From: Prorocentrum cordatum
Lineage: Eukaryota > Sar > Dinophyceae > Prorocentrales > Prorocentraceae
Length of the DNA stretch: 64,000 bases
NCBI GenBank assembly: GCA_963575745.1
Contig: CAUYUJ010001750.1
Location: forward strand, 1-64,000
Reading direction: 5' to 3'
Shown here piece by piece: positions 24,721 to 64,000 of this stretch. The notes under the pieces were generated by a model. It was given only the letters and a program-made list of their open reading frames with translations, searched no databases and had not been told where the DNA came from. The position numbers and the translations under genes are program-made. Position 1 is the first letter of the stretch, and each line of letters begins with the position of its first letter.

Positions 24721-24723
24721 CGC

Positions 24724-24779
<56 letters not shown>

Positions 24780-31610: not shown

Positions 31611-32529
31611 GTTGGCTCGAACAATCTCGACAGAACTTTTGCTGACTTTTGCTCGCTTGAAATTTTGTCCTCGAAATTCAATAATTCGTTTGAGCTCTAG
31701 TATTTTTTCCCGTGATATTCGATCTTATTCTGGCTCGCCATCTTGATTCCATCGGGTGAATATTACTATCGAAAAGCACTGTGGCGGGATCGGCTGTTAT
31801 AAGTCATCTTGATACGCGGTGATGGTTTTCTGAAAATAACTCGAGCTTTTGGACAGCTACAGATAAGCACAGCGAGTCGATGTAGAATATTTAGGCGCGT
31901 TCGCCTGTTGAATCCAGAGGTCTGAACTTGGTCTGTTAGCCGAGCTAGGTCCGCAACCCTATTCGTATTATTCGAGTGATCTTGAGACACTCTCGGTTTT
32001 CTGTACTTAACTCGAGCTGTAGGACAGCTACAGAGCTGATATTTACAGAAACCGATTCAGAATCATCAGTTGCGTTTGTCTATCGAATCCGGAGCTCTGA
32101 ACTCGGTCTGCTGCCCGATCTAGAATCGCGAAACTTCGTATTGGTCGAGTCATCTTGAGAAGTGCTCTCGGTTTTCCTTGCCTAACGCGCTGAGGAGGGC
32201 TACAGTGCAGGTGGTCACAGGAATCGATTCGAAGACATCAGGCGGGTTCGCCTGTCGAATCCAGAGCTCGGAACTCGGTCTGCTGCCCGAATTAGGTCTT
32301 CGAAACTACTGTATTGTTCGAGTCATTCTGAGAGGTGCTGTCGGTTTTCTGCACTTAACTCGGGCTGTAGGGGCCTGCATGGCTGTGACAGGAGTCGATT
32401 CGCAGACATCAGACGCGTCCGCCTGTTGCATTCAGAGGTCGAAAAATATTCACTATGAGTCGGAATGTGGGTAGGTGCTATCGGTTTTCTCAACTTAAGT
32501 CGAGCTAGGAAGCTCTACGAGTCTCCCGG
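31611..32529 (+). repeat. Satellite block 5, ending in the left half of a split hairpin module
   Basis: Diverged lead and monomers, then AGGAAGCTCTACGAGTCTCCCGG at 32,507-32,529. There the module stops abruptly because a LINE copy begins. Confidence 0.75.
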
Positions 32530-34707
32530 GGATTCGAATGGAAGATCGAGTCGCTCGAGGTCGCGTTTATCGGTTTCTCGGAGAAGCCAAAACAGCCTAT
32601 CCTGGTTCGGGTTCAGGATCAGATGGTGCCGTTCAAAGTAGTTGACGAGATGAATGTCTTGGGGAACAGCATATACTGTAGCTATAGGGAGGCACACCAA
32701 GACCTTCGGCGACGGATCGGGTCCGCACGACGAGCCTTCCATGCGCATGCAGCCTATTTTAGATCGAAGGCAGTCCCTTTTTCGGCCAAGTGTAGGAGTT
32801 ATATCACTCGGGTTCAGAGCATCCTCACCTATGGAAGTCAAGGTATTAGTTGGGACAGGGACTCTTTGCATAGCCTGAATGTCTTTGAGGGAAATTGCCT
32901 TTACCAGATGACGTCACCCCAAAAGCCTGCCTCCGAAAGTTGGGTAGTTTGGAAGCCAGCTCGACTCAGAATTGCTAGACGGATGTTCTTTGAAGCCAAG
33001 TGCCAGAGTGCAGTGCAGAGAGTCCTTTATTCCTTGTGGCAGCTCGGAGCGGACATAGCATCATATTTCGGAGCCAATGTCGATAGCGGATATCAGATTC
33101 CTGAGTCGGAGCTGAGCCCAGGGATGGTCGCGGTCTCTTCAGTTACCAATGGGATGGTGGAGGTCTCTTCAGTTACCAATGGGATGGGTGCTGTCTCTTC
33201 AGTTACTAATGGGATGGGTGCGGTCTCTTCAGATACGAAGGGGATGGGTGTGGTCTCTTCTGATATGCATGGGATGGTCTCTTCTTCAGTTACCAATGGG
33301 ATGGGTGTGGTCTCTTCAGTTACTAATGGGATGGTGGAGGTCTCTTCAGTTACCAAGGGGATGGGTGCTGTCTCTTCAGTTACTAATGGGATGGGCGCGG
33401 TCTCCTCAGATACGAATGGGATGGGCGCGGTCTCCTCAGATATGCATGGGATGGTCTCTTCTGCTATGCCCTCTGATAGGGCCTCTTCTTCTCGAGATAT
33501 TGAAGTTCCCTGTGAGCGGGGGGGGCCTAGGGATCCCCCCAGGCCCCCCCCGAAGCGTCGGAGGATGGCAGTTCCTGGACCTGGACAACAGACGGTGTTT
33601 CCTCGTGCGCATCGAGACGCACGCCGGCTTCTGATGTGCTGTACCCCGAGGTGGGAGGAGAAAAGGACACTTGAGTCAAAATATTTGCGTTCCCAGTGGA
33701 AGTGGAAGGAGGCCTCGAAACTGACACGATTAGGCAGTGCTAAGGGGCAGGCGACGGGTGAACATCCTTGGTGTTTCATGTTCCAGACGATATTTCCCTC
33801 GTTTGTGAATCTGGAGGATCGTTGGTGGAGGGCGTGTTCTTTCTCTTACTCTGACTTCGTTCAGTATTGCAGGCAGTTCCTGGAAGCTTGTACTTTGGGT
33901 TCTCTGTTTGACTTGTTTGTTGTCCGTGGAGGAACTGGAGGACGAGGAAACTACATGAAGGAGAGGGGGGAGGAGATGATGGCTCGTCCGTTGTCGGTGA
34001 AGGAGTCTGAGAAGCTGGCCCAGAGATTGGCCTCGAACAATGAACAGGAGCCGACTTGGGATCTGAGTGATGACGGGATCGGTCTGGAGCTGACGGGAGA
34101 TTCGCTTCTTATCTGTAATTGGATCAACGGTCTCTGGAAGGTTGAGGGTGGAGAAGGAGGAGATGGGGCTTCTTATCGTAGGCGGGTTGCAAATATTATT
34201 TCTCTGTTGGAAGAATTGGAGGAGGAAGGAGTACGACCCCCCTCATGGGGCAACGACTTTATTCGACACATATATCGGGAGAGTAACACAGTAGCTGATG
34301 AACTTACCCATCTAGCACGGGAAGGCCAGATATTCAGAGAGCTGTTCCACCACCATATCTTTCGCCCTGATGTTCAAGACAACTTTCGAGTTATTGGCCT
34401 CCGCGGATCCTTCGACGGCGGAGTGTGTGCCCAAGGTGTGGGCGTCGGCTGGTTTCTGCAGATTGGATATATCCCTCGCTTCCATGATCCGTACCCTGAC
34501 CCTGAACATAGAGATAAGAGAGCTCGGGTAGTCTCCCTCTTCCCCCAAGCCTCCTCTCCTTGTCCAATCATATGGGAAGTAGTAGGGCGTTGTGCACAGG
34601 CACTCCCCTCCCATAGCAGTATCACTGACGCTGAGCTTTCGGGTCTCGAGGGCCTCTTGCGGGCCGCAGCCCAGGTGGCCCAAGACCTCCAGCTGCAGAG
34701 AGACTAG
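32530..34707 (+). pseudogene. LINE ORF2 C-terminal fragment with permuted RNase H-like domain
   Basis: The frame is open across the 5' junction: GFEWKIESLEVAF aligns by eye with GFNWKASSMEFLA, which follows the RT active site in the complete LINE at 59,480. RT palm is absent. After the thumb-like region (VLGNSI...R.RI..A...F) comes a 10-residue tandem repeat region (33,121-33,470), then an RNase H-like domain with motifs in the order LTGDSLLICNWI, IYRESNTVADELTHLA, LRGSFDGGVCAQGVGVGW, DAELSGLEGLL. The first three carry Asp and the last Glu, in permuted order. It stops at TAG 34,705. There is no internal disruption over ~725 codons, so it is a young or selected copy, but as a 5'-truncated copy it probably has no promoter. 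Confidence 0.8.
33121..33470 (+). repeat. In-frame 30-bp minisatellite in the LINE fragment
   Basis: Twelve copies of GGGATGGGTGCGGTCTCTTC-AGTTACTAAT with variants; two copies are shortened. They encode (G-M-G-A-V-S-S-V-T-N). Copies 3-6 and 9-12 share the same variants (T-K/T-N, D-M-H, shortened unit), so a six-unit block was itself duplicated. Confidence 0.9.
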
Positions 34708-34766
34708 GTAGGCACTTAACGGGCGCTGGGGCGCTCGGTGCCTGGTCAGCCTCCCCAAAAAAAAAA

Positions 34767-34863
34767 CGAAGGTTGACGGTTCACCGCCGGCGCCCAGTCG
34801 TAGAGCTTCCCTTAGCAAGTTGTTGCTGGAAGCTTAGAGTAATTTCGGAGCGCTGGAGAGCTA
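34767..34863 (+). repeat. Right half of split hairpin module plus spacer
   Basis: AACGAAGGTTGACGGTTCAC... completes the stem (CACCGCCGG) and is followed by TCGTAGAGCTTCCCTTAGC, the outer inverted-repeat arm, and the usual GGAGCGCTGGAGAGCTAGT end. Confidence 0.8.
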
Positions 34864-36890
34864 GTGCCTCGTAGAACTCTGACGGTAGAAGGGCTAGAGG
34901 AATTCGGCGACAGGGTGGAGCTAGTTGGCGAAATGTCGAAAAGGGACGCGATCATACCTTCCGCGGCCTGGCTCAGCCGATTTTGCAGTTCTAACAATTC
35001 GTTTGGGCTGCTATTTGCGCAGAGCGAAGCTTGGCATTACAGAAGTTACCTCACAAATTCTTAGTTCATTCCGTCGAAAAATTCTCCCGAGCGAAGCCAG
35101 GGACCGACTTCACGTTGGCAGTCCAAAAATGCAATTTTCCAGTTTTGCAGAAAATGCCATCAGAAGCTATCTGCTTGCACTTCTAGTTCTCTCAGGCGCC
35201 TGCTTGCACTTCTAGTGCCTCGTAGAGCTCTGATGGTAGAAGAGCTAGAGGAATTCGGCGACAGGGTGGAGCTAGTTGGCGAAATGTCGAAAAGGGACGC
35301 GATCATACCTTCCGCGGCCTGGCTCAGCCGATTTTGCAGTTCTAACAATTTGTTTGGGCTGCTATTTGCGCAGAGCGAAGCTTGGTATTACAGAAGTTAC
35401 CTCGCAAATTCTTAGTTCATTCCGTCGAAAAATTCTCCCGAGCGAAGCCAGGGACCGACTTCACGTTGGCAGTCCAAAAATGCAATTTTCCAGTTTTGCA
35501 GAAAATGCCATCAGAAGCTATCTGCTTGCACTTCTAGTTCTCTCAGGCGTCTGCTTGCACTTCTAGTGCCTCGTAGAGCTCTGATGCTAGAAGAGCTAGA
35601 GGAATTCGGCGACAGGGTGGAGCTAGTTGGCGAAATGTCGAAAAGGGACGCGATCATACCTTCCGCGGCCTGGCTCAGCCGATTTTGCAGTTCTAACAAT
35701 CGTTTGGGCTGCTATTTGCGCAGAGCGAAGCTTGGCGTTACAGAAGTTACCTCACAAATTCTTAGTTCATTCCGTCGAAAAATTCTCCCGAGCGAAGCCA
35801 GGGACCGACTTCACGTTGACAGTCCAAACATGCAATTTTCCAGTTTTGCAGAAAATGCCATCAGAAGCTTTCTGCTTGCACTTCTAGTTCTCCCAGGCGT
35901 CTGCTTGCACTTCTGGTGCCTCGTAGAGCTCTGATGGTAGAAGAGCTAGAGGAATTCGGCGACAGGGTGGAGCTAGTTGGCGAAATGTCGAAAAGGGACG
36001 CGATCATACCTTCCGCGGCCTGGCTCAGCCGATTTTGCAGTTCTAACAATCGTTTGGGCTGCTATTTGCGCAGAGCGAAGCTTGGCATTACAGAAGTTAC
36101 CTCACAAATTCTTAGTTCATTCCGTCGAAACATTCTCCCGAGCGAAGCCAGGGACCGACTTCGCGTTGGCAGTCCAAAAATGCAATTTTCCAGTTTTGCA
36201 GAAAATGCCATCAGAAGCTATCTGCTTTCACTTCTAGTTCTCTCAGGCGTCTGCTTGCACTTCTAGTGCCTCGTAGAGCTCTGATGGTAGAAGAGCTAGA
36301 GGAATTCGGCGACAGGGTGGAGCTAGTTGGCGAAATGTCGAAAAGGGACGCGATCATACCTTCCGCGGCCTGGCTCAGCCGATTTTGCAGTTCTAACAAT
36401 TCGTTTGGGCTGCTATTTGCGCAGAGCGAAGCTTGGCATTACAGAAGTTACCTCGCAAATTCTTAGTTCATTCCGTCGAAAAATTCTCCCGAGCGAAGCC
36501 AGGGACCGACTTCACGTTGGCAGTCCAAAAATGCAATTTTCCAGTTTTGCAGAAAATGCCATCAGAAGCTATCTGCTTGCACTTCTAGTTCTCTCAGGCG
36601 TCTGCTTGCACTTCTAGTGCCTCGTAGAGCTCTGATGGTAGAAGAGCTAGAGGAATTCGGCGACAGGGTGGAGCTAGTTGGCGAAATGTCGAAAAGGGAC
36701 GCGATCATATCTTCCGCGGCCTGGCTCAGCCGATTTTGCAGTTCTAACCAGTCGTTTGGGCTGCTATTTGCGCAGAGCGAAGCTTGGCATTACAGAAGTT
36801 ACCTCACAAATTCTTAGTTCACTCCGTCGAAAAATTCTCCCGAGCGAAGCCAGGGGCCGACTTCACGTTGGCAGTCCAAAAACACCTCGT
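34864..36890 (+). repeat. ~351-bp tandem satellite, six copies
   Basis: Copies start at about 34,864, 35,215, 35,566, 35,916, 36,266 and 36,617 (the last is truncated near 36,882). Each begins TGCCTCGTAGAGCTCTGA, contains GAGCTAGAGGAATTCGGCGACAG, and ends with two TCTGCTTGCACTTCTAG-like strings. Copies are almost identical. The lengths 351/351/350/350/351 explain why short frames recur. The 5' part resembles the D module (GAGCTAGAGGAATTCCGGCG) found elsewhere. Confidence 0.95.
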
Positions 36891-37115
36891 AGAGCTCTTC
36901 GGCATCGATGAGCTAGAGGAATTCCGGCGCGGGGTGGAGCTAGTTGGCCGACCCGACCAAAAGAGACAATGTGATAACCTTGGGTCGGTTTTGCTTTGAT
37001 TTGAAAGATATTTGACAATTCATTTAGAGAACCGGTATTTTTCTCACGTGTAGTGGGTTATGCCGCGTCTGCCAGTTAAATTCTCAGGTCCGTAGCTGCA
37101 ATATTACTATCAAAA
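36891..37115 (+). repeat. D module plus partial B unit
   Basis: CTCTTCGGCATCGATGAGCT-AGAGGAATTCCGGCGCGGGGTGGAGCTAGTTGGCCGACCC, then B-unit sequence (GACAATGTGATAACC, TTTGAAAGATATTTGACAATT). Other D modules are at 42,733, 54,793, 63,681 and 63,743. Confidence 0.75.
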
Positions 37116-37783
37116 GACTTGCTGGAACCAATGCGTTCCGAGTCATCTTGACACGCGTTCGCGGTTTTCTGTACTTAACTCGAGATTCCGAGAGCTACAG
37201 AGCTGATACTTACAGAAACCGATTCAGAATGATCAGGCGCGTTCGCCTGTTGCATCCAGAGGCCTGAACTCGGTCTGCTACTCGAGCTAGGTCCGTAAAA
37301 GTCATCTTCACCAGTGATGCCGGTTTTCTGTACTCAACTCAAGATTCAGAGGAGCTACAGAGCTGGTGCGCACATAAACTGATTCAGTATCACCAGGCGC
37401 TTGCGTCTGTTGCATCGAGAGGCCTGAACTCGTTCTGCTAGTCGAGCTAGGTCCACAACACTATTCGTATTTCTCAAGTTCTCTTTAGAGGCGCTGTCGG
37501 TATTCTGCACTTAACTCTAGCTGTAGCACAGCTACAGAGGTGGTACGCACAGAAACCGATACATAATCATCAAGTGCGTTTGGCTGAAGCATCTAGAGCT
37601 CTGAACAGAGTCTGCTTCTCGAGCTAAGTCTGCAAAACTATTTGTATGCGGTCGATTTTTTAGAGTTTTTTGGTTCTCGCTTTAGCTTGCTTCACGTGTT
37701 CCGAGGAGCTGGGCAAGAAAAGAGCTCTACGAGGTCCCCGGCGGTAATTAACCAGGTTGACGGTTTACCGCCGGCGCCCAGTT
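37116..37783 (+). repeat. Partial satellite monomers ending in hairpin module
   Basis: Three diverged ~177-bp monomers starting near the GAGTCATCTTGA at 37,139, fused to the last ~70 bp of a B unit, then a module at 37,722 with a 3-nt longer loop (AATTAACCAGGTTGACGG). Confidence 0.7.
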
Positions 37784-38951
37784 GGCAAGAAAAATCTCGA
37801 CGGACATTTTGAGGAATTTTGGTCGGTTGAAAATTTTGTTCTCGAAATTCAACAATTCGTTAGGGCTCTAGTATTTTTTCCGTGATATTCGATCTTATCC
37901 CCGCTCGCCATTTTGATCTCAGCTCGATCGGGTACCTTTTACTGCCAGAAAGCGTCCAGGCGGGATCAGCCGTTTCGAGTCATCTTAATACGCGCTGTCG
38001 GTTTTCTGAAGATAACTCGAGCTTTAGGACAGCTACAGAGCTGGTAAGCACAGCTAATCGATTCAGAATGATCAGGCGCGTTCGCCTGTTGAACCCAGAG
38101 GTCTGAACTCGGTCTGCTAGCCGAGCTAGGTCCGCAATCCTATTCGTATTATTCGAGTCATCTTGACAGACGCTCTCGATTTTCTGTACTTAACTCGAGC
38201 TACAGGACAGCTACAGAGCTGATGCGTACAGAACCTGATTCAGAATCATCAGTGGCCGTTGTCTGTTGAATCTAGAGCTCTGAACTCGGTCTGCTGCCCG
38301 ATCTAGAATCGCGAAACTATTCGTATTGTTCGAGTCATCTTGAGAGATGCTGTCGGTTCTCTGCACTCAACTCGGGCTGTGGGGGGGCTGCATGGCTGGT
38401 AATCACTGGAATCGATTCGGAGACATCAGGTGCGTCCGCCTTTCGAATCCAGAGCTCCGAACTCTGTCTGCTGCCCGAACTAGGTCCGCGAAACTATTCG
38501 TATTGTTCGAGTCATCCTGAGAGGTGCTGTCGGTTTCCTGCACTTAACTCGGGCTGTAGGGGGCTGCAGGGCTGGTAATCACAGGAATCGATTCAGAGAC
38601 ATCAGACGCGTCCGCCTGTCGCATGCAGAGGTCTGAACTCGGTCTGATACTCGAGCTAGGTTTGCCAAACTATTCGTATTGTTCGAGTCATCTTGAGAGG
38701 TGCTGTCGATTTACGCACGTAACTCGGGCTGTAGGAGAGCTACAGAGCTCGTACAGAAGACAATCCAGAAGCATCGGGGGCGTTCGGCTGTTACATCGGA
38801 GAGGTCTGAAATTGCTTGGGCTGAAACACTACTTTATCAGTGTTTTTTTTCGACATTATATGTTGTCAGGAAGCTCTACGAGTCCCCCGGCGGTAACGAA
38901 GGTTGACGGTTTACCGCCGGCGCCCAGTTCCGGGGCGCTGGAGAGCTAGTT
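37784..38951 (+). repeat. Satellite block 6 ending in hairpin module
   Basis: Used to measure the monomer: GAGTCATC starts at 37,977, 38,155, 38,332, 38,509 and 38,685, i.e. 176-178 bp. Within monomers, CTGTAGGAGAGCTACAG-like inverted repeats recur. Confidence 0.9.
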
Positions 38952-40078
38952 GGCAAGAAAAATCTCGACGGACCTTTTGGTCACTTTTGGTCGGTTGAAA
39001 ATTTTGTTCTCGAAATTCCTCAATTTGTTTGAGCTCTAGTATTCTTTCCCGTGATATTCGATCTTATCCCCGCTCGCCATCTTGATCTCAGCTCGATCGG
39101 GTACCTTTTACTGCCAAAAAGCACACGGGCGGGATCGGCCGTTTCGAGTCATCTTGATACGCGCTGTCGGTTTTCTCAAGATAACTCGAGCTTCAGGACA
39201 GAGCTGGTAAGCACAGCTAATCGATTCAGAATGAGCAGGCGCGTTCGCCTGTTGAAACCAGAGGTCTGAACTCGGTCTGCTAGCCGAGCTAGGTCCGCAA
39301 ACCTGTTCGTATTATTCGAGTCATCTTGACAGACGCTCTCGGTACCTAACTCGAGCTACAGGACAGCTACAGAGCTGATGCGTACAGTTTTTGATTCAGA
39401 ATCATCAGTGGTTATTATCTGTTGAATCCAGAGCTCTGAACTCGGTCTGCTGCCCGATCTAGAATCGCGAAACTATTCGTATTGTTCGAGTCATCTTGAG
39501 AGATGCTATCGGTTCTCTGCAATTAACTCGGGCTGTAGGGGGGCTGCATGGCTGGCAATCACTGGAATCGATTCGGAGACATCAGGCGCGTCCGCCTTTC
39601 GAATCGAGAGCTCTGAACTCTGTCTGCTGCCCGAACTAGGTCCGCGAAGCTATTCGTATTGTTCGAGTGATCCTGAGAGGTGCTGTGGGTTTCCTGCACT
39701 TAGCTCGGGCTGTAGGGGGGGCTGCAGGGCTGGTAATCACAGGAATCGATTCAGAGATATCAGAACGCGTATGCAGAGGTCTGAACTCGGTCTGATACTC
39801 GAGCTAGGTTTGCCAAACTCTTCGTATTGTTCGAGTCATCTTGAGAGGTGCTGTCGATCTACGCACGTAACTCGGGCTGTAGGAGAGCTACAGAGCTCGT
39901 ACAGAAGACAATCCAGAAGCATTGGGGGCGTTCGGCTGTTGCATCCGAGAGGTCTGAAATTGCTTGGGCTGAAAAACTATTTGTTCAGTGTATTTTTTTC
40001 GACATTACATGTTGTCAGGAAGCTCTACGAGTCCCCCGGCGGTAACAAAGGTTGACGGCTTACCGCCGGCGCCCAGTT
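38952..40078 (+). repeat. Satellite block 7 ending in hairpin module
   Basis: Same monomer order as block 6, with short deletions (for example near 39,198 and 39,770). The module at 40,017 has one loop-side change (GACGGCTTACC). Confidence 0.85.
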
Positions 40079-41220
40079 GGCAAGTCAAATCTCATCGGAC
40101 CTTTTGCTGACTTTTGGTCGGTTGAAAATTTTGTTCTTGAAATTCCTCAATTCGTTTGAGCTCTATTTTTTTCATGATATTCGATCTCATTCCCGCTCGC
40201 CATCTTGATCTCAGCTCGATCGGGTACCTTTTACTGCCAAAAAGCGTCCAGGCGGGATCGGTCGTTTCGAGTTATCTTGATACGCGCTGTCGATATATCG
40301 AACTTAACTCGAGATATAGGACAGCTACAGAGCTGGTAAGCACACCTTATCGATTCAGAATGATCAGGCGCGTTGGGCTGTTGCAACCAGAGGTCCGAAC
40401 TCGGTCTGCTAGCCGAGCTAGGTCCGCAAACCTATTCGTATTATTCGAGTCATCTTGATAGGCGCTCTCGGTTTCTGTACTTAACTCGAGCTTTACGACA
40501 GCTACAGAGCTGATACTTACAGAAACCGATTCGGAATCGTCAGTCGCGTTCGTCTGTTGACTCCAGAGCTCTGAACTCGGTCTGCTGCCCGATCAGAATC
40601 GCGAAACTGTTCGTATTGTTCGAGTCATCTTGAGAGGTGCTGTCGGTTTTCTGCACTTAACTCGGGCTGTAGGCAGACTACAGGGCTGGTGATCACAGCA
40701 ATCGATTGGGAGACATCAGGCGCGTCCGCCTGTGGAATGCAGAGCTCCGAACTCGGTCTGCTGCCCGAACTCGGTCCGCGAAGCTGTTCGTATTGTTCGA
40801 GTCATCCTGAAAGATACTGTCGGCTTTCTGCACTTAACTCGGGCTGTAGGGGGGCTGCAGGGCTGGCAATCGCAGGAATCGATTCAGAGACATCAGACGC
40901 GTCCGCCTGTCGCATTCAGAGGTCTGAACTCGGTCTGATACTCGAGCTGGGCTTGCCAAACTCTTCGTTTTGTTCGAGTCATCTTGAGAGGTGCTCTCGA
41001 TTGACGCACGTAACTCGGGCTATAGGAGAGCTATAGAGCTCGTACAGAAGACAATCCAGAAGCATCGGGGGGCGTTCGGCTGTTGCATCGAGAGGTCTGA
41101 AATCGCTTGGGCTGAAAAAATATTCGTTCTCTGCAATTTTTCAATATTATATATTGTCAGGAAGCTCTACGAGTCCCCCGGCGGTAACAAAGGTTGAGGG
41201 TTTACCGCCGGCGCCCAGTT
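40079..41220 (+). repeat. Satellite block 8 ending in hairpin module
   Basis: Five monomers with lead. The module at 41,159 has TTGAGGG in place of TTGACGG in the loop. Confidence 0.85.
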
Positions 41221-54753: not shown

Positions 54754-55174
54754 GATCGACCCGGCCAGAAAGGACTATGTAGCACCTTACCTCGTAGAGC
54801 TCTTTGGCATCGATGAGCTAGAGGAATTCCGGCGCGGGGGGCAGCTAGTTGGCCAACCCGGCCCAGGCGGACAATGTGGTGACCTCGGGTCGGTTTTTCA
54901 AAGATTGCGAGAGATTTTGAAATTCGTTTTGAGAATTCGAATCTTCATTCTATGCAGTGAATCATAGCGCTTTCGATGGTGCAATCCTCAGGGCTCTAGC
55001 TGCATTACCATAAAAATACTAGGGGGAACCAGCATTGTAACACCGAAAACAATATATCTTTGTTTTATTGAGAAGCGATTCGCTGCTGTTATCTGGAAGC
55101 GAACTTGGTCTATTCAGAGCTCTACGAGGGTTCCGGCGGTAACCTGGTTGACGGTTTACCGCCGGCTCCCAGTT
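54754..55174 (+). repeat. D module and diverged B unit ending in hairpin module
   Basis: The D module at 54,793 has one loss (GGGGGGCAGCTAGTT). The B unit is diverged. The module at 55,117 is of the CCTGGTTGACGG loop type. Confidence 0.75.
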
Positions 55175-55498
55175 GGTCGACCCGGCCAGAAAATAAGATG
55201 TGATAACTTTGGGTCGGTTTTGCTGGGATTTGAAAGATATTTGACAATTCATTTTGAGAAAGCAGATTTTTCGCACCTGTAGACGACTATGAGAGCCTCT
55301 GCGTCTTAGTTTGAGCTCTGTAGGCACATTTTTACTATCAAAACACTTGGCGCAACCAACTTCACGTCAACGTTTTTTTTTTTTTTTTTTTTTTTTTTGT
55401 TTCTTTCCAAGAAATGCTTCGAGAAGCTCTCTCTTTCGATTCTGAGCAATCTCACGCGTGCAAGGAGCTCTACGAGGTTCCCGGCGGTGACCAGGTTG
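55175..55498 (+). repeat. B unit with T26 tract, ending in left half of split hairpin module
   Basis: A 26-nt T run (55,373-55,398) replaces the ATATCGACATGAAAAAAATC found at this place in other B units. The left half-module is GAGCTCTACGAGGTTCCCGG-CGGT, then GACCAGGTTG at 55,489-55,498, followed directly by the LINE. Confidence 0.8.
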
Positions 55499-55578
55499 CT
55501 GCTGTCCCTCCTCGGGGATCTCAGCGGTGGCCTGGCCCGTCGGGGGCCTCCTCAAGCCTGTCTCCTCAGGCTGCCCCC
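55499..55578 (+). ncRNA. Structured 5' end of the LINE RNA
   Basis: Stem CTGCTG (55,499-55,504) with CAGCGG (55,522-55,527), enclosing TCCC-TCCTCG-GGGA-like hairpin; then GGGGGC (55,542-55,547) with GCCCCC (55,573-55,578), enclosing AGCCTG-TCTCCT-CAGGCT. The same fold is kept in the copy at 61,633 with CCGCTG against CGGCGG, where base changes preserve pairing through G-U/G-C exchange. Pairings found by eye; no folding program was run. Confidence 0.5.
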
Positions 55579-55619
55579 TGGGCGGCCGTGGGCGCGCGTG
55601 GGTGCGCGCTGGCCCATAA

Positions 55620-57122
55620 GTTGTGTACTTCGTCGGCTGCAACCTCCTGGACGTGCTGCGCATAGGTCGCTGCATTTGTTCTCTGCTTGTGTTAGTGGGT
55701 GAGCCCACACGTGCCGCTGGAGGCGCAAGGCCGCTACTTGTTGCACTTGTATCTTTGCTGTTTGCTTGTGATACTCTTGGGAGCCCAGCACTTACCAGTT
55801 TTGCTCTGGCAGTTGAGAAGGACACTTTGACCGTATTTGTTGCAGCAGATCTCATCACGTACCGACATTCACCTTCACGGGGTTGGGATAAGTTTCTTGA
55901 AGAACTCGAGAACGAACACTATCGTGATCTGGAGGCTAGTAGGTGCCCTACTTGTCGAGCTTATCGGTATTCTACTTCCAGTTGTGGGCAGTGTGATCTT
56001 AAGAGAAAAATGGTTCCGACTTCTGATGATGATATGGGAACTGAGGGCAACGGAGAGAAACGACAGAGGAAGCTCCTGGAAGATAGACGTCTTCTTGGTG
56101 ATGCCGAGGGAGGTGGAGGAGGGGCAGGTAGTGGGAATGGAAGTGGTAGTAGTGGAGGAGGAGGAGGTGAAGCTGGAGATCTGGCCACTATGCTCCGTGC
56201 ACAGTTCGATGCCATGCGTGAAGATATGCAGAGGATGCTTATGCAGAACTCTGTTGACATCAAAGAGCAGATTCAAACGAGGGTATCAGAGCAGGTTGCC
56301 CCTATTGCTTCGTCGGTGCAGGAGATTCGTTCAGCTCAGGAGGCCCAGGCGAAAGAGATCAAAGCACTTCAGTCCCAGATGAACTCTAGGGATCCCTGGG
56401 CAGATTCAGCATCTCTGGGAGGTGCGTCTACTCGTGATTCTCGTACTGCTGACTTCCACAGGCCCTTTGTACCACATGTTCCGACTTGGATCCAGGTGAG
56501 CGGCTTCGCGCAAGAGGACCCCCGAAAGGTTGAAACTCGAGATAAGGCCAAGATCCAGGTCACCACGGTTAGGAACATGATAGGTAAGTTGTACACACTA
56601 TCGCAAGCACGGGAGAGTGACGTTACTAAGATCTTCGACAGGGGTAGGACGGACGGGGACATCGCTTCCAATCGATTTGGTGTGACCAAGTTTCGCATAT
56701 ACTTCATGCCAGGGACTTCGAAAGAGACGGTCTGGGAAGTACGCAACGAGTGGGCCTCAGCCTGGTCCAATTCGTGCCCTGATCTGGTCGGTTGTCAGAA
56801 CAGTTTTGGACCATACAAAGATCGACACCTCGGTTGGTTTGTCCAACCTGCACCACAGGACCGACGTCGAGTGGGGCAGACTCGCAAGGCGACTGCGATC
56901 TTTCATAAGCTCAAGACTGTTGCCACCGCTCTCATCACTTTTGAGCCTGAAGGGCCTGCAAAGGCTTGGGCATACCTGCAGAAGGATAGTCAGAGTGATA
57001 AAGTTTGTGTAGGTACGTGGACGGATACCGTGGGATGGAAGTTCGTGGCCGAGCGGGTCCAGCACATCGATTCAGATCTGGACTGCAAGACTTGGGAGAG
57101 GCAGGTGAATAGCAGCTCGTGA
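55620..57122 (+). CDS. LINE ORF1: CxxC zinc-ribbon and coiled-coil protein
   Basis: The frame is open from the codon after TAA 55,617 to TGA 57,120, about 500 codons. The first ATG is only at 56,010, downstream of a convincing zinc-ribbon-like block CPTC-x(9)-CGQC at about 55,955-56,000, so initiation is upstream at a non-AUG codon, by splicing, or the ribbon is lost. After a Gly/Ser linker (GGGGGAGSGNGSGSSGGGGG-type) comes a likely coiled coil (DLATMLRAQFDAMREDMQ..., then IRSAQEAQAKEIKALQSQM) and a ~200-residue C-terminal domain that I do not recognise. Zinc ribbon plus coiled coil is compatible with a LINE ORF1p RNA-binding, trimerising role. ORF2 follows in the same frame after a single UGA. 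Confidence 0.7.
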   Translation, partial: VVYFVGCNLLDVLRIGRCICSLLVLVGEPTRAAGGARPLLVALVSLLFACDTLGSPALTSFALAVEKDTLTVFVAADLITYRHSPSRGWDKFLEELENEHYRDLEASRCPTCRAYRYSTSSCGQCDLKRKMVPTSDDDMGTEGNGEKRQRKLLEDRRLLGDAEGGGGGAGSGNGSGSSGGGGGEAGDLATMLRAQFDAMREDMQRMLMQNSVDIKEQIQTRVSEQVAPIASSVQEIRSAQEAQAKEIKALQSQMNSRDPWADSASLGGASTRDSRTADFHRPFVPHVPTWIQVSGFAQEDPRKVETRDKAKIQVTTVRNMIGKLYTLSQARESDVTKIFDRGRTDGDIASNRFGVTKFRIYFMPGTSKETVWEVRNEWASAWSNSCPDLVGCQNSFGPYKDRHLGWFVQPAPQDRRRVGQTRKATAIFHKLKTVATALITFEPEGPAKAWAYLQKDSQSDKVCVGTWTDTVGWKFVAERVQHIDSDLDCKTWERQVNSSS

Positions 57123-57125
57123 CGG
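57120..57125 (+). promoter_or_regulatory. UGA-CGG between ORF1 and ORF2: candidate readthrough site
   Basis: ORF1 ends TCG-TGA-CGG and the next codons stay open in the same frame for 1,423 codons. UGA followed by CGG or CUA is the context of one known class of stop-codon readthrough in RNA viruses. ORF2's first essential motif, WNVRRL (57,147), lies 24 nt after the stop, while the first ATG in frame (57,186) lies beyond it. Translation must therefore enter from ORF1 or a non-AUG start. No 3' stem-loop was verified. Confidence 0.5.
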
Positions 57126-60100
57126 TGCCCAGCTTCTGTTGGAGGTTGGAACGTTCGGAGGTTGGGAAGATACACCTCCGAGTGCATGAATCACATTGCC
57201 GAATTAAAGATTTCCATCGTCGGGGTCCAAGAGAGCCAGTTCTTACACGACTTGGATCTTGCAGATGCGGGTTGGGATATACATCGCTCGGCAGATGAAG
57301 GGGAGAACGTGGGGAGACGGGCTGCCATCTTGTGCCGAGGTGTATGGAGACATCTGCTTATCGATGTTGTGTGTGGTCGTCGCTGGGTCATTGCGATCTT
57401 TCGCAAGCTCATCTTCGTTTCTGTCTATCTCCCTCATAAGGAGTCTGAGCGGGGTGCACAGGGTGAAGCACGCCGTTCTCCTGAAGGGTTTCTCGCTAGT
57501 TTCAAGCTCTATACGGACGTGTTATCGGATCTTGTTGCACATGTCTCTGCGGCCAAAAAGCGATTTCACATTGAGGAGGTTGTTATCTCGGCTGACGCCA
57601 ACGTGGAGGTTTTCCCGCACCACAGGATCAATGGGGTGGAGGTTACGGGGGAGGCGGTGAATGGGCCTATACGTAAGAGGGGGAGGTCTAGTGGAGGTGA
57701 CGAAAGTAGAGCCAACAGGATGAGGGAGATGTACTCGGGGGCCTTTCTGAAGACCATGGGGGCCCTCAAGTTGCAGCTAGCCAACACTTTTGGGAATCGT
57801 CAGCCTACTTGGAGACACAATTCGAGCACATACGAGCACGTCTATGATTATCTTGCGGTCCCAGCTTCCTGGATGACTCCAGAGGTGACTTGTTCTTGGG
57901 TTGTGCCGTCCCAGGTCCCACGGTCGGAGGCGACGGAAAGGACGTTCAGCGATCACAAGCTCTTGTGTGCCGAGATGCCCGCCCAGCATGCTCAGTTGAG
58001 GTATCGACGCCGGCCTCAGCTCAAGACCTGGAAGCTTCAGCCAGGGTTCGAGCTCCAGCAAACAGCCGGCTTGGAGAGAGCGATCTGCCAGCCCGAGCTC
58101 GTGAATCAGATCCACACGGACGTAGGTTTTGAGGTCATGACACAGAGTATACTTGAGGGTGCCAGTGAGACTTTGGATATCTCCCGTTCTCGTGGTCAGC
58201 CTGTTTCAGACTATCCCAGATATTCGGAGGAGGATTTACTGATAAAGGAGGAGTTCTTTAAGGTCAGGAAGAGGTGGAGGATGGCACGATGTGGTGGGGC
58301 TAACGTGGGACAGGAGGAGTACGAGAGAGTCCAGGAGGAGTATAAGGGGACAGCTAGGAGGTGGCGTCGAGTACGTAAGCGTCATGATCGTGCATGTGAG
58401 CTTTATCGTATTCGTGACGGTGTCCGTCGTAGGCCTGTTATTACGCACATGTATGTGGACGGGGTCCTCACGCGTGACCAGGAGAAGTGGATTGAGGGCC
58501 TTCGGCGTCATGGGCTCCTGAGGTACTCTAGCGATCCCCACCGACAGGACACCAACGCGTGCTTGGATGAGCTTAAGAACCAGTGTAAGGCCCTGCGAGA
58601 CTCTGGAGAGCCCCACCGCAACCCGATCAACATGGGTCTCTTGCTGGAGGCACGGTCTAGACTCAGGGAAGGACGGGCAACAGGTGCAGACGGGGTGACG
58701 TCATCGGTGCTCAAAGCATTGCCATGGGAAGCCCTCCGACACATACTTACCCTATTCCGTTTGCTGTATGATCAGAAACATGTTTCACCGAAGTCCTGGA
58801 GAGAGATCTTGGTATGCTTGATGCCTAAGAATCCCAAGGCTCGTGATTTTGAAGAAACGCGGGCCCTTTCACTTCTTTCTCATTTTGGTAAGTGGTATAG
58901 CAGTTGTCTATGTGTACTTCTAGAGCACCGCGTTCGGCAGGCTGCACCGCCAGGTTGCAACTTATATGGCTTTATCGCGGGGCACAAATGTTATGAGGTC
59001 ACGGCCCCCCTCAAACGTCTTGCTCAACACGGCGTTGTGTGGGGGAAGGAGGAGAGTCTTTATCTTGCAAGTGCTGATATTGAAAAGGCGTTTGATAATT
59101 TCACGGTGAGATGTGCAGCAGAGGCGCTTTTATTCCATCATGTCCATCCTGCCCTTGTGTATGCTGTCTTTGAGAGTTATGCTTGTAATACGGCAGAGAT
59201 CAGCTTCCAACAGTGTTCTACGACCATCTCGTGGGATACTTGCATACGTGCAGGTTCCTTGGAGGCGCCTTTGCTATTTGTTGCCCAGACACTCCGTATG
59301 CTTGCACCAGTGACGGCAGGTTGGAGGCAGTCTGGATACGGCGTCAGGCTCACTGATGAGGCATCCAATCTTATGGTCAACCACTGGTTGTGGGCAGACA
59401 ATATTTTGCTGGCAGCAGCTTCCAGGCGAGAATTGACCCATATGCTCGAGGACTTGACTGGGGTCCTCCATCGCTTCGGTTTCAACTGGAAAGCATCTTC
59501 GATGGAGTTCTTGGCTTGTGGCGTCCAAGGTCCATTGCAGGATATCCGCCTGCCGGTGCCGGGGCTCCTGCCTGCTGAGATGGGTAGGAAGCGTTCTCGT
59601 GGGGCTTCCCAGAGCGCCGCAGGCCCTTCGGAGGAGATGATAGTGAGGCAGGTGGAGAGGATGGAGGTTCTTGGCACGCTATTGGACGTACGATTTCAGG
59701 ATCATGAGGACATTAAGCACCGACTGGAGAAAGCACGGCGGGTCTTTATGAGTGAGATTTCTTTTTACTCGTCGCCCGTGGTTCCGCTTCGTTGTAAGTT
59801 TCAGCGTTATGATAGCAGGGTCAGAAGTTGCTTTCTGTACGGTTTGGAGGGTACGACTCTGGATTCGAGTAGTCTCCAACAGATACATGCAGCTGAAGGC
59901 AACTTCTTGTCCACCATGAGACGTCTCAAAAAGAAGATCACGGAGTCTTGGGGAGAGTACTGGGGCAGGAGGATTAAAGGTGGTCGTCGCTTATTGAAGT
60001 GGGCCCGTAAGCCTTCGATGGTCCAGCTCGCCCTTCATCGCCAGTGGCTCTTCGCCAAACATGTTGTGAGCACGATCCATGAGGAGCATAGTCGGGTGGA

Positions 60101-61391
60101 TGAGGACGCACTCAGTCAGGGCATTCTTTATCATGAACCACGAGATCCTGATATTTTTGGTGGTTCGCAGCGTTCCTTGGAGTTATCGGCTCCCTCGCCT
60201 ACCCCGAATGCCAGACAGCTCAACAGTTCGTGTAGGAGAAAGGCACAGAGCGCATCTTCCTTGGAAAATAGGTCAGTTCGCAGACGTATATCGGAGAACA
60301 CAGCACATGAGCATCATGATTCACAACATGTACATGAGCCTGTTCGTAAGCGGGTACGCCATACCTATGCACGGGAGGAGGAAGGAGGATTGCCCACTGC
60401 CAGTATGCAGAGCGCCTTGACGATGATGCACGCGTCGGGGGAGTGGACTGAGCAGCGTGACGTACATGTTAGAGCTCTCCCTGGGGGCCGAAGGTTTACC
60501 AGAGCCTGTCGTCATCGAGTCTTGACGGGACTTAGGCCTTGGTTCGAGGTCTTCGAGCACACGCACGGGGTTCATTGGGATCGTACGATGGTCTGGAATG
60601 AAACTGGCTGGCGTTCTTTCCTGGTGGGTACCCTGGCCGCCCTGGACTTGGATGATCTTCTCGAGTTCTGCCTTCTTCGGGATCCCTTCACGGGTGAGTT
60701 CAAGCAGGAGGAGGAGGGGGAGGAGAAGTCAGAGGAGCAGCAACGACGGGAAAATGAACGGGTGGCGAAACGACTGGCCGCGATAAATGATGATGAAACC
60801 ACTTGGCGTGGGGAAGGGGGTGGATATGGCTTGGAGCTCCGTGGGGATAGCCAGTGTGTTGTGCGCTGGCTTAATGGACGATATCGCTGTCACAATGAAG
60901 TATATCGCCGCACGATCAAGGGTATGCAGAACCGCCTTCACAGAATGAGTGAGGACCATCATCTTGTCACGGCTGAAGTGGGAAGGGATATGTGGAAATG
61001 GGTGTATAGGGAGGGCAACGATGAGGCGGACCATGAGACACATCTTGCACGTGAGGGTAAAGTAACTTCTGATGTTCGTTGGAATCATAACATTCTTTAT
61101 CATATTAGATCGGGTCATTATATTGTTCGTGCACTTAGAGGAGCTTTTGACGGTGGGCGGTGTGAACGTGGCACTTCGTGTGGTTGGGTTATGGATGCTT
61201 ATCTTGTTCCCTCTCTTCCTCCTCACCAACTTCCCCCTGGACTTGTGCAGGGCGGATGGCACCCTGGAGTTGGCCGCAGAGGTTTCATGGTCCCTAGCCA
61301 CTGCACGATCACACAGGCTGAGTTAGCAGCTGCACATTCGCTTCTCAATGGCATTGCCGAGATGTGTATACACGTACAGCTTGGCCGGTGA
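57123..61391 (+). CDS. LINE ORF2: EEP endonuclease, reverse transcriptase, permuted RNase H
   Basis: About 1,423 residues in the same frame as ORF1. EEP (APE-like) endonuclease: WNVRRL, VQESQF, SADANVEV and SDHKLL, all catalytic elements present, about 57,138-57,970. RT: motif A SADIEKAFDNF (59,070), motif B-like RAGSLEAPLLF (59,248), motif C WADN (59,391-59,402), where the second Asp of the usual (F/Y)ADD is Asn. Then GFNWKASSMEFLA, a thumb region, a low-complexity linker, MMHASGEW (~60,424), and an RNase H-like domain with D at 60,846 (RGDSQCVVRWL), D at 61,029 (YREGNDEAD), D at 61,149 (LRGAFDGG) and E at 61,320 (QAELAAAHSLL). The order is permuted relative to classical RNase H. The EEP presumably makes the first nick inside the hairpin module. 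Confidence 0.85.
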   Translation, partial: RCPASVGGWNVRRLGRYTSECMNHIAELKISIVGVQESQFLHDLDLADAGWDIHRSADEGENVGRRAAILCRGVWRHLLIDVVCGRRWVIAIFRKLIFVSVYLPHKESERGAQGEARRSPEGFLASFKLYTDVLSDLVAHVSAAKKRFHIEEVVISADANVEVFPHHRINGVEVTGEAVNGPIRKRGRSSGGDESRANRMREMYSGAFLKTMGALKLQLANTFGNRQPTWRHNSSTYEHVYDYLAVPASWMTPEVTCSWVVPSQVPRSEATERTFSDHKLLCAEMPAQHAQLRYRRRPQLKTWKLQPGFELQQTAGLERAICQPELVNQIHTDVGFEVMTQSILEGASETLDISRSRGQPVSDYPRYSEEDLLIKEEFFKVRKRWRMARCGGANVGQEEYERVQEEYKGTARRWRRVRKRHDRACELYRIRDGVRRRPVITHMYVDGVLTRDQEKWIEGLRRHGLLRYSSDPHRQDTNACLDELKNQCKALRDSGEPHRNPINMGLLLEARSRLREGRATGADGVTSSVLKALPWEALRHILTLFRLLYDQKHVSPKSWREILVCLMPKNPKARDFEETRALSLLSHFGKWYSSCLCVLLEHRVRQAAPPGCNLYGFIAGHKCYEVTAPLKRLAQHGVVWGKEESLYLASADIEKAFDNFTVRCAAEALLFHHVHPALVYAVFESYACNTAEISFQQCSTTISWDTCIRAGSLEAPLLFVAQTLRMLAPVTAGWRQSGYGVRLTDEASNLMVNHWLWADNILLAAASRRELTHMLEDLTGVLHRFGFNWKASSMEFLACGVQGPLQDIRLPVPGLLPAEMGRKRSRGASQSAAGPSEEMIVRQVERMEVLGTLLDVRFQDHEDIKHRLEKARRVFMSEISFYSSPVVPLRCKFQRYDSRVRSCFLYGLEGTTLDSSSLQQIHAAEGNFLSTMRRLKKKITESWGEYWGRRIKGGRRLLKWARKPSMVQLALHRQWLFAKHVVSTIHEEHSRVDEDALSQGILYHEPRDPDIFGGSQRSLELSAPSPTPNARQLNSSCRRKAQSASSLENRSVRRRISENTAHEHHDSQHVHEPVRKRVRHTYAREEEGGLPTASMQSALTMMHASGEWTEQRDVHVRALPGGRRFTRACRHRVLTGLRPWFEVFEHTHGVHWDRTMVWNETGWRSFLVGTLAALDLDDLLEFCLLRDPFTGEFKQEEEGEEKSEEQQRRENERVAKRLAAINDDETTWRGEGGGYGLELRGDSQCVVRWLNGRYRCHNEVYRRTIKGMQNRLHRMSEDHHLVTAEVGRDMWKWVYREGNDEADHETHLAREGKVTSDVRWNHNILYHIRSGHYIVRALRGAFDGGRCERGTSCGWVMDAYLVPSLPPHQLPPGLVQGGWHPGVGRRGFMVPSHCTITQAELAAAHSLLNGIAEMCIHVQLGR

Positions 61392-61622
61392 TTGTTTGTG
61401 TACTATATCTGCACAGCTCCGCTGTTGTAAGATACATGCTTAGCCCCACTGTTTCTTTGATGTGTGTATATTCCTGTGCAGCTACGCTGTTGTATCATAT
61501 CTGCACAGCTACGCTGACTTGTATATCACACAGCTCCGCTGTTAGTGCTTAGGTTGCCTGTAGGTAATCCTACCGCTGGCCCTGCCCCCTAAGGGGGCTC
61601 GAATCGGGCCCCGCAGACCGCA
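61392..61622 (+). other. LINE 3' UTR with mini-hairpins and terminal stem-loop
   Basis: CAGCTCCGCTG (61,412), CAGCTACGCTG (61,480 and 61,506) and CAGCTCCGCTG (61,531) each form CAGC/GCTG with a 3-nt loop. The terminal hairpin is GCCCCC (61,584-61,589) TAA GGGGGC (61,593-61,598), followed by TCGAATCGGGCC and the tandem CGCAGAC tail. The terminal stem and the TCGAA(T/C)CGG box are shared with the next element. Confidence 0.7.
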
Positions 61623-61632
61623 GACCAGGTTG

Positions 61633-61712
61633 CCGCTGTCCCTCCTCGGGGATCTCGGCGGTGGCCTGGTCCGTCGGGGGCCTCCTCAAGCCTGTCTCCT
61701 CAGGCTGCCCCC
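61633..61712 (+). ncRNA. Structured 5' end of the non-autonomous element
   Basis: CCGCTG (61,633-61,638) pairs with CGGCGG (61,656-61,661); the inner TCCC/GGGA hairpin and the GGGGGC/GCCCCC plus AGCCTG/CAGGCT stems are identical to the LINE copy. The two changed positions relative to the LINE keep pairing. Confidence 0.5.
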
Positions 61713-61824
61713 TGGGCGGCCGTGTGCGCGCGGGCGGGCCGTGCGATGGCGGCTTGAGCACCTCTTGTCTCTGCAGTGGGTGGAGTCAGATTTGTTGTGT
61801 GAGTACCCCTTGCTGTGTGTTGCC

Positions 61825-63087
61825 ATGACAACGCAATTTTGTACCTCGTCGACTTCTACTCTGTATGCCATCTCCTATCCCGTTTCTTCTTCCCCATCCT
61901 CGTCGTGGCGGCGGAGAGCGAAAAGGCTGAGACTCGCCATGTTTCGACAAGCCCTCTTTGACATCCATCCTCTGCGGTGCGTTCCAGTGGGGATGCAGTC
62001 TCCAGAGGTGGTGCAGTCTCCAGCCGTGGTGCAATCTCCAGAGATCCGTGTGCTAGAGGCTCTTGATGTGATGACTGAGTCTTTCGACGGAGTCGCTAAA
62101 CCCGATGGGCCAACTGAACGTGGGAAAGCTTTGTCGTCCTATTCTGTTGCTTGTTCTCCAGATGCGGTGCAGTCTCCAGATGGTGTGCTGGGTTCTGTCT
62201 CTTTTCTTCCTGGTGTTCAGAATGAGGAGTTGCAGGACGAGGATTTGCAGAATGAGGATTTGCAGAGTGAGGAGGTGCTGAATGAGCAGTTGCATTATTC
62301 TCAGCATACTGTTTCTTTGGATTCCAGCTCTGAAGTTTGCCGCGCTTCATCTCCGGACGCTCCGTCGGATTGTCTTGGGAAGGCTGGGCAGGAAGATCTT
62401 AAGGTGTGGAAGGAGGTGGAGGAGTCTCCTGATGTGGTGCAGCCTCGAGATGTGCTGCAGTCTTCGGAGGGTGTGCTGCAGTCGATACTGGTTTCTGTCT
62501 CTATTGACCCTGCGGTTCTGAATGAAGATTGGCAGGACATTCTTAATAAGGTGATTGACGATGAGGTCGCGCATGTTCAGTCTGATGCTGCGGTTGACTG
62601 GAGCTCTTCAGTAACTATCAACAACAACAAAAACTCGGAAGTGGTTTCTGTTTCTGTTGATCCAGGTGTTCTGAAAGAGGAGTTGCATGATGAGGAGTTG
62701 CAGGGTGAGGAGTTGCAGAATGAGGAGTTGCGGAATGAACAGTTGCATTTTTCTCATTATAAAGATTCTATGACTTCACACCCTGGGAGTTCCACGACTG
62801 GGAGTTTATCTAATGCAGTTGTGAGTTCAGCAGTGACGGAGGACGAGTGTCAAGCTGCCAGGGACTGGGCCCTTGCCGGTGTCGATGTCAGTGCTCTTTG
62901 GCGTGAGCTACACCGACTCCCGAGGCAGGAGCTTCAGCGTAGGACTGAGGCTCTTCATGCACACAGGCTGCAAATGGGAATTGAAAGTTCCGAGGAGGAT
63001 GATTCGCAACAAGGGGGTCCTCAGAGTTCTACTTCCAGGAGTGCATTGACGCGGAGCGGCAAGAAGCATCGGAAACGGCACAGATGA
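61825..63087 (+). CDS. Hypothetical repeat-containing protein of the non-autonomous element
   Basis: ATG at 61,825 gives 420 residues; the frame is open from the element start. Not recognised. Features: repeats of (V)VQSP(E/A/D) (about 61,990-62,190); two diverged copies of an acidic repeat E-E-L-Q-(N/D)-E (62,221-62,310 and 62,671-62,760), each preceded by VSVS(I/V)DP or SVSFLPG and followed by a His/Tyr-rich end (QLHYSQH, QLHFSHY); and a C-terminus with W-R-E-L-H-R-L and a basic tail GKKHRKRHR that could bind nucleic acid. It could serve an ORF1-like role, by position only. Confidence 0.5.
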   Translation: MTTQFCTSSTSTLYAISYPVSSSPSSSWRRRAKRLRLAMFRQALFDIHPLRCVPVGMQSPEVVQSPAVVQSPEIRVLEALDVMTESFDGVAKPDGPTERGKALSSYSVACSPDAVQSPDGVLGSVSFLPGVQNEELQDEDLQNEDLQSEEVLNEQLHYSQHTVSLDSSSEVCRASSPDAPSDCLGKAGQEDLKVWKEVEESPDVVQPRDVLQSSEGVLQSILVSVSIDPAVLNEDWQDILNKVIDDEVAHVQSDAAVDWSSSVTINNNKNSEVVSVSVDPGVLKEELHDEELQGEELQNEELRNEQLHFSHYKDSMTSHPGSSTTGSLSNAVVSSAVTEDECQAARDWALAGVDVSALWRELHRLPRQELQRRTEALHAHRLQMGIESSEEDDSQQGGPQSSTSRSALTRSGKKHRKRHR

Positions 63088-63646
63088 TGCACATGTGATT
63101 GATCCTGCACGCTTGATTTGTCATTGCGTTGCCTTTCTTCATGCCTGTGTGTTGTCGTGCATGCGCGTGTGTTGCTTCCTTGATTTGAGTGCTCATTGAC
63201 CTTTGAACGTGACTTTCCGTGATTTGTCACGTGGTGCCTCAAAGTAGGCCTTTGATCTGGTCGACACCAGGTTTCACTTAGACATGGTTTCACACGTCCA
63301 GGTTCCACTTAGGCATGGTGTCAAAGCACGCTCGCTATCTCAGTTCTCTTAGTTCCGTGTTCTTTCTCAGTGGTGTTGAGACGGTAATCGCTGTATAAAC
63401 CAGTGGTTACTGTATGGTCTCTCACTGCTTCTTGCTGTCTTGTACAGCTTCTTTGATCATCTTTGTCGTTTTGTATTCTAGTGTATTGGCAGTCTTGTGC
63501 ATATCTGTACAGCTTCGCTGTTTGATGCACCTCTGCTTTTATCTTTGCAGCTTCGCTGTCTTCCTGTACAGCTTCGCTGTTTAGGTTCTTTGTGTTTAGG
63601 CCTGCTCCCATGGGAGCTCGAACCGGCCTTCGCAAAAGACGCAAAA
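63088..63646 (+). other. 3' UTR of the non-autonomous element
   Basis: Contains a ~31-bp direct repeat CCAGGTTTCACTTAGACATGG / CCAGGTTCCACTTAGGCATGG (63,268 and 63,299), three CAGCTTCGCTG mini-hairpins, and the terminal stem-loop described for the element. No gene is seen. Confidence 0.6.
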
Positions 63647-64000
63647 GACCAGGTTGACGGTTCACCGCCGGCGCCAGTCGGCATCGATGAGCTAGAGGAA
63701 TTCCGGCGCGGGGTGAAGCTGGTTGGTCGACCCGACCAGAAAGCTCTTCGGCATCGATGAGCAAGAGGAATTCCGGCGCGGGGTGGAGCTAGTTGGTCGA
63801 CCCGACCAGAAAGGACAATGTGATAACTTTGGATCGTTTTTTGCGAATATTTGAAAGATATTTGACCATTTATTTTGAGAGAGCAGATTTTTCCAACCTG
63901 AAGAAGGTTATGAGAGCCTCTGCGTCTTAATTTGAGCTGTCTAGGCGGACTTTTTCAACCGAAACACTTGGCGGAACCAACTTCGCTTCGACATGAAAAA
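63647..64000 (+). repeat. Right half of split hairpin module, two D modules and start of a B unit
   Basis: GACCAGGTTGACGGTTCACC-GCCGGCGCCAGT closes the module opened at 55,465. Two D modules (63,681 and 63,743; GGCATCGATGAGC(T/A)(A)AGAGGAATTCC) follow, then B-unit sequence running off the window. Confidence 0.8.

Follow-up and report, generated by a model that had tools for sequence, protein, structure and literature searches.

In Xenopus, the long interspersed nuclear element (LINE) Tx1L targets the DNA transposon Tx1D. LINEs are known to insert strictly into rRNA, tRNA and spliced-leader genes, into telomeric repeats and microsatellites, and into transposons, among other targets; the R1 and Tx1 clades are both of the apurinic/apyrimidinic endonuclease (AP endonuclease, APE) type (PMC4640811). 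Group IIC-attC introns are retroelements, too, and home to the hairpin that serves as recombination signal at the ends of cassettes arrayed in tandem (PMC7923331). In Helitron2 elements, a 5' asymmetric terminal inverted repeat (ATIR) folds into a hairpin at the 5' end, and a 3' ATIR lies immediately before the 3' hairpin (PMC3627910); inverted repeats in subterminal position, a palindrome at the 3' end and repeats in the centre mark DINE-1/HINE elements, and in Helentrons the helicase is followed by an AP endonuclease (PMC4067079). Searches of the open-licence literature yielded no account of a LINE with specificity for Helitron ends. Here, we analysed positions 1-64000 of contig CAUYUJ010001750.1 of Prorocentrum cordatum (assembly of 4.13 Gb in 21,875 contigs), a stretch of 64,000 bases referred to below as the window, in which four retroelements, E1 to E4, interrupt copies of a ~60-bp hairpin module at one site. 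We consider it very probable that the modules are the 3' termini of Helentron/Helitron2 elements and of their non-autonomous, tandem-repeat-bearing derivatives, and that one site in these termini is the main target of diverged LINE families.

The locus resembles R1 and Tx1 elements in having two open reading frames (ORFs), a probable AP-type endonuclease together with a reverse transcriptase (RT) in ORF2, a strict multicopy target, target duplication and 5' truncation; it differs in its apparent target, the 3' hairpin of a rolling-circle transposon, and in its RT motif LWADN. As with Tx1L, the LINEs are specific for a site in what appears to be a DNA transposon, but this transposon is of another kind and at least three diverged families use one terminal, probably functional, signal. 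Group IIC-attC introns offer an analogy, as retroelements at a hairpin signal in tandem arrays; they are, however, ribozyme-based, bacterial and usually opposite to the cassettes, whereas the elements in the window are LINE-type, have the same orientation as the units and apparently do not require the hairpin. Integron-like attC sites were considered, by analogy only, and were not retained. The array and its neighbouring genes resemble Helentron, Helitron2, HINE and DINE-1 elements in coding for PIF1 plus AP endonuclease, in the ATIRs, in the 3' hairpin and in central tandem repeats; unlike known Helentrons, they have a UCH instead of an OTU protease, a very large Rep ORF and a role as LINE target.

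From 25.2 kb on, the window is an array of units, mostly with a module at the end. A regular expression identified 26 intact modules, all on the + strand, and had no match in five mononucleotide shuffles of the 25-64 kb region; the module pattern also had no match in viral contigs, and Rfam gave no match in the window at gathering thresholds and none at E 1 in 55440-55680, which holds module and LINE 5' end. The modules fall into subclasses A (AGGAAGCTCTACGAGTCCCCCGGCGGTAAnnAAGGTTG...), B (...GGTTCCCGGCGGTGACCAGGTTG...TTCACCGCC) and C (...GGCGGTAACCTGGTTG...TTTACCGCCGGTTCC), and intermediates occur. All four retroelements are oriented like the units and are placed as follows:

32511..32529, + strand, left half of the E1 module, class A, shortened
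32530..34765, + strand, E1, 5'-truncated LINE with the end of the RT region, an RNase H-like C-terminus and a 3' A tail
34766..34797, + strand, right half of the E1 module (AACGAAGGTTGACGG...CAG)
51400..51424, + strand, left half of the E2 module, class C
51425..53538, + strand, E2, 5'-truncated LINE
53539..53572, + strand, right half of the E2 module
55463..55498, + strand, left half of the E3 module, class B, with the first GACCAGGTTG at 55489-55498
55499..61622, + strand, E3, full-length LINE
61623..61632, + strand, second GACCAGGTTG, the target-site copy separating E3 and E4
61633..63646, + strand, E4, 2-kb element
63647..63678, + strand, third GACCAGGTTG and right half of the E3/E4 module

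The initial annotation had placed the 3' junctions of all four elements in the module loop, and we found them there, at 34,766/7, 53,539, 61,623 and 63,647; unfilled modules of the same subclasses are present too. Its statement that the left flank is the module's left half held for every element, for E4 by way of the tandem, with the reservations that the E1 arm is shortened, its left junction lying inside the left stem between CCCGG and GGATT (32,529/30), and that E2, which begins directly after GGCGGT (51,424/5), has no clear duplication. The assignment of all four elements to one LINE family did not hold: the proteins of E1, E2 and E3 have only 24-33% identity over their overlapping parts, and E4 has little in common with E3 beyond its first 102 bp (96%). 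Both flanks of each element come from one module subclass, namely class A for E1, class C for E2 and class B for E3 plus E4. Given 29 modules (three filled, 26 intact) in the 26,339 non-LINE bases that lie beyond 25,178, the chance of four insertions at one 1- to 10-bp site is about 1e-12 to 1e-8.

We next turn to the copies of these families elsewhere in the genome. Specifically, the last ~250 bases of E2, E3 and E4, excluding the module, served as queries and the bases downstream of each match were read; flank counts cover the best 40 scored candidates per query. For the E3 tail (best 40 of 154 candidates scored) all 40 places were read; for the E2 tail (best 40 of 206) we read 20 of the 39 non-window places, all from the identical set described below, and for the E4 tail (best 40 of 724) 20 of the 39 others (16 best and four weaker). 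Scored for half modules as the initial annotation had proposed, the right half proved common with these tail-only queries, following in register in 34/40 E3, 18/20 E2 and 17/20 E4 copies; among the best-scored places most copies thus lie at one site, as in target-specific LINEs. In E3, two of the other tails stand before a recognised element (the window copy, then E4; L030, then an E1-type 5' end) and four before other sequence, and (G)ACC(A/T)GGTT is kept in 39/40 copies, with one base changed in L072. Because L022/L023, L038/L050, L043/L046 and L074/L075 have common flanks, duplicated loci are suggested, leaving ~36 distinct loci, 31 of them with a module. The right halves next to E2 belong to classes C, B or A. 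The 247-bp E2 tail itself (53290-53536) is identical in 25 of the 40 scored places, counting that in the window, which speaks for very recent activity.

For E1, 20 loci were read from a query that included the module (best 40 of 2399 candidates scored), and the sample is biased for that reason; all 20 have the module right half. By alignment, 18/20 begin 12-34 bases past the start of the left arm (two being the reference copies themselves); L016 starts after ~30 bases of filler, and L017 has no left-arm start, its nearest arm coming from an empty module. Element lengths range from ~0.2 to ~6.2 kb, and L001/L004, L007/L008 and L014/L015 resemble duplicated loci. With the E3 5' end as query (best 40 of 224 candidates scored), all 39 places besides that in the window were read: 35 follow a module left half and four another element's tail, which is E3-type in L069 and L090 and A-rich, of no recognised family, in L061 and L084. 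Two of the 35, L088 and L118, are 5'-truncated elements with a broken arm, of which L118 retains only GAGCT; L086 and L115 have a common flank.

The flanks also bear on how the target is cut. Among E1 copies with a retained left loop, the variable letters that precede AGG are equal on both sides in seven of nine distinct copies (L012, L013, L014, L016, L018, L019 and L020), whereas chance agreement per copy is ~0.32 by a hand estimate from letter frequencies. Because of this excess, the loop is most likely a 10-11-bp target-site duplication. The 10-base GACCAGGTTG occurs three times in the E3/E4 tandem (55,489; 61,623; 63,647), which therefore points to two insertions, each with a 10-bp duplication and the later one into a half module, provided that the tandem did not arise by unequal exchange. 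Off the modules, the E2 copy L093 lies inside the ORF of another E2 at ATACTGGGTGACAG, which resembles AACCTGGTTGACGG and has no palindrome.

The initial annotation had left the endonuclease as sequence- or structure-specific, and of these two we favour the first. An enzyme that reads structure would cut the terminal hairpin where stem and loop meet while the hairpin is extruded or single-stranded, as it may be on Helentron intermediates; single strands are exposed by rolling-circle transposons, the nick point that we infer is indeed the stem-loop border, and on-target copies lie within a palindrome whose arms can pair in 97.7% of cells over the 26 intact modules of the window. Yet tandem insertions occurred in half modules that lack one stem arm (E3/E4 in the window; L030, L069 and L090 beside a recognised element), as they did in L036, L061 and L084 beside an element of no recognised family; the look-alike hit by L093 forms no palindrome, and each LINE family favours one loop class. 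The half-module insertions and L093 therefore favour recognition of the sequence around GGTTGAC, and we regard a structure-reading enzyme as quite unlikely.

At the protein level, a search with E3 ORF2 and four relatives (E 1e-3) confined LINE sequence within the window to E1, E2 and E3, which by their sequences are at least three diverged LINE families. E3 ORF1 runs to 57122 and is followed in the same frame by ORF2 (57123-61391), the two being separated by an in-frame TGA-CGG (57120-57128); because this is present in 12/12 other copies read, it suggests stop-codon read-through or reinitiation. ORF2 contains an RT domain (RVT_1, E 7e-8), for which a profile search of the PDB ranks 8c8j (E 1e-7, an entry with the name RNA-directed DNA polymerase) and LINE-1 ORF2p 9k6g (E 1.7e-7) highest, and the C-terminus of ORF2 has a sub-threshold RNase H-like match (RVT_3, E 0.042). 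The RT box reads LWADN in E3 and four aligned relatives; the usual box is (F/Y)xDD. The N-terminus is a probable AP-type endonuclease: all 50 Foldseek matches listed for its structural model are AP endonucleases (E about 1e-5, at a predicted local distance difference test score, pLDDT, of 44), and it contains N, QE, DAN and SDH motifs, which we take to be those of an AP-type enzyme. The 5' truncation, target-site duplication and 3' A-rich tail are those of APE-type LINEs. E4 has no RT match and may be a non-autonomous partner of E3; its 485-aa ORF (61630-63087) has internal repeats and belongs to no Pfam family. Pattern searches elsewhere returned 16 matches for the LINE alignment and three for the Helentron protein described below, with no relative confirmed among them. 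The Helentron endonuclease was also considered as the origin of the LINE endonuclease and set aside, as BLASTP of one pair gave no meaningful similarity.

Our working model for insertion, including the action of the enzyme, the order of its cuts and its reading of sequence rather than an extruded hairpin, is as follows. The ORF2 endonuclease would recognise double-stranded sequence around (R)ACCNGGTTGAC and nick the bottom strand at the stem-loop border, which on the top strand falls between GGCGGT and RA. Reverse transcription of the A-rich or CGCAAAA-rich RNA tail would then be primed by the freed 3' end, and the top strand would be cut after GGTTG, giving the 10-11-bp loop duplication. Incomplete copies would yield 5'-truncated elements, often losing the duplication or part of the left stem, and the half module left by an insertion would still be usable as a target, resulting in tandem pile-up.

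What the modules themselves are is suggested by the left part of the window and by the anatomy of the array:

1245..12923, + strand, giant Rep-bearing ORF of 3892 aa with a weak DUF6570 match, assigned to an autonomous Helentron; a Pfam Rep match is absent
12706..17019, + strand, PIF1 helicase (E 1.3e-10) with a C-terminal AP-type endonuclease (Exo_endo_phos)
17227..19020, + strand, UCH-type ubiquitin hydrolase ORF (E 4e-16)
25178..25240, + strand, first hairpin module, probable 3' end of the Helentron copy
26249..55175, + strand, 25 further intact modules, each at the 3' end of a non-autonomous unit of ~1.14 kb or ~0.35 kb; the units are arrayed head to tail
26313..26360, + strand, example of a 5' ATIR with 5' hairpin (CTCGTAGAGCTTCC...GGAAGCTTAAGAG)
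28891, 34797, 34868-36886, 42730, 45947, 47198 and 54791, + strand, other 5' ATIR and hairpin sites

The PIF1 helicase and the AP endonuclease lie in one ORF, as in Helentrons, the Exo_endo_phos match (E 3e-5, 24.3 bits) being just below the cut-off of 24.5; Rep is identified by motifs only, as we take 'GGNLHYHGF' (HUH-like) and the two-tyrosine 'EYVTKYATK' in the giant ORF to be Rep motifs. The UCH ORF is probably part of the same Helentron. In the metagenomic relatives P0034 and P0035 (59-61% identity), PIF1, endonuclease and UCH occur together (fused), and an Oscarella relative, P0078 (27% identity), has PF14214, PF02338, PF05970 and PF20209, of which we take PF14214 to be Helitron_like_N and PF02338 to be OTU. 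Between the Helentron genes and the 3' end lies a ~5 kb GT-rich microsatellite (19948-24864). Of the 14 sites with a 5' ATIR, seven head clean units and seven lie in a 351-bp array or in the stub before it; in each of the seven clean units the ATIR has 12-16 bp of complementarity to the arm that directly precedes the unit's own module, the ATIRs in the array or stub have 9-14 bp of complementarity to the next module, and the three ATIR segments tested fold as hairpins (z -5.8, -1.8, -2.2). The ATIR and hairpin arrangement of Helentron/Helitron2 is thus present in non-autonomous units; many units are without a 5' ATIR, and the autonomous copy extends beyond the contig at its 5' end. The 351-bp tandem array (34861-36882, 5.8 copies) consists of monomers with the 5' ATIR hairpin and no 3' hairpin, like one-ended Helitron repeats, and the long units contain 177-bp internal tandem repeats.

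The 194-bp spacer before the first module (24985-25178; best 40 of 193 candidates scored, 12 read) recurs elsewhere in the genome. In seven of the 12 copies read it continues through an intact module to CAGT and the sequences then diverge, which therefore indicates dispersed copies with a fixed 3' end, as expected of Helentrons; at module ends, the only junctions observed lie between CAG and T. The other five (L156, L161, L162, L164 and L167) are interrupted at the module: the interruptions in L161, L162 and L164 match LINE ORF2 at E 1e-3 to 1.6e-4, that in L156 does so weakly (4e-3) and that in L167 has no convincing protein match, while L162 and L164 share a flank. Because an autonomous Helentron fills 1-25 kb, because of the ATIR anatomy and because of the divergence after CAGT, the module looks like the hairpin that terminates Helentron/Helitron2 elements at the 3' end. 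The modules could instead be a satellite or an unrelated palindromic repeat beside which the Helentron lies by coincidence. The 177-bp periodicity of the array would agree with this, as would the lack of a second copy read that has Helentron coding sequence upstream of the module; yet it would leave unexplained the complementarity between 5' ATIR and pre-module arm in the seven clean units, the hairpins of the three tested ATIR segments, the 40 scored places with spacer plus module together with the divergence after CAGT, and the GT-rich block, which lies upstream of the spacer in 3/3 other copies read just as it does in the window. We therefore see little likelihood in a coincidental satellite. 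That the half modules are the LINE's own ends, and the array modules solo LINE remnants, would account for module halves flanking most copies read and was the outcome that the initial annotation had named as counting against its proposal, but it is extremely unlikely: within one family the loop letters vary from copy to copy and are mostly equal left and right of the element, E2 right halves are of class A, B or C, 5'-truncated copies retain the left half, unfilled modules of the same subclasses occur, modules terminate dispersed units that contain no LINE, neither of the two off-target E2 copies has a module right half, and most copies differ from one another in what follows the module. Half modules as a part of the LINE were ruled out on the varying duplicated loops and the three classes of E2 right halves.

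Several observations weigh against modules as Helentron termini targeted by LINEs. The flank counts come from best-scored places only, several of which have common flanks and some of which are probably duplicated loci. Four of the 40 E3 right flanks (L036, L040, L074 and L075) are neither module nor recognised element, where the sequence after L036 also begins at a module in L167 and L074 and L075 have one common flank; two of 20 E2 copies are off-target, without a module right half, and three of 20 E4 copies (L146, L152 and L155) have other sequence after GACCAGGTT(G), again neither module nor recognised element. The E1 loops are unequal in two of nine events (L002 and L007). Upstream of a second spacer copy, the stretches read (L168-L171) are GT repeat, and Helentron coding sequence is not reached. 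Covariation in the stem is slight: both sides have changed in one pair, and 167/500 shuffles reach this value. The folding of three single modules is only modestly better than that of shuffles (z -1.7, -0.7, -3.6). For the E3 ORF2 N-terminus, Pfam gave no endonuclease even at E 10, and the structural model is poor (pLDDT 44). We still hold Helentron/Helitron2 termini with one main LINE target site to be the best account of the array.

If so, the landing site would be an apparent rolling-circle transposition signal common to LINE families with about one third protein identity or less, and one genomic parasite would be using another's ends as its landing site. More tentatively, LINE lineages may have specialised long-term, subclass by subclass, on Helentron hairpins, disabling or riding the ends, with the arrays as a safe haven and with loop and target preference codiverging; we hold this to be possible, though rather less than even in likelihood. 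The loop classes A, B and C with their matching LINE families, together with the off-target sites, would form a natural series for specificity shifts of AP-type endonucleases, and the ORF2 protein would be a candidate enzyme for insertion at a natural site that is short and well defined. For Prorocentrum cordatum, the arrangement would link satellite growth, Helentrons and LINEs in one giant genome.

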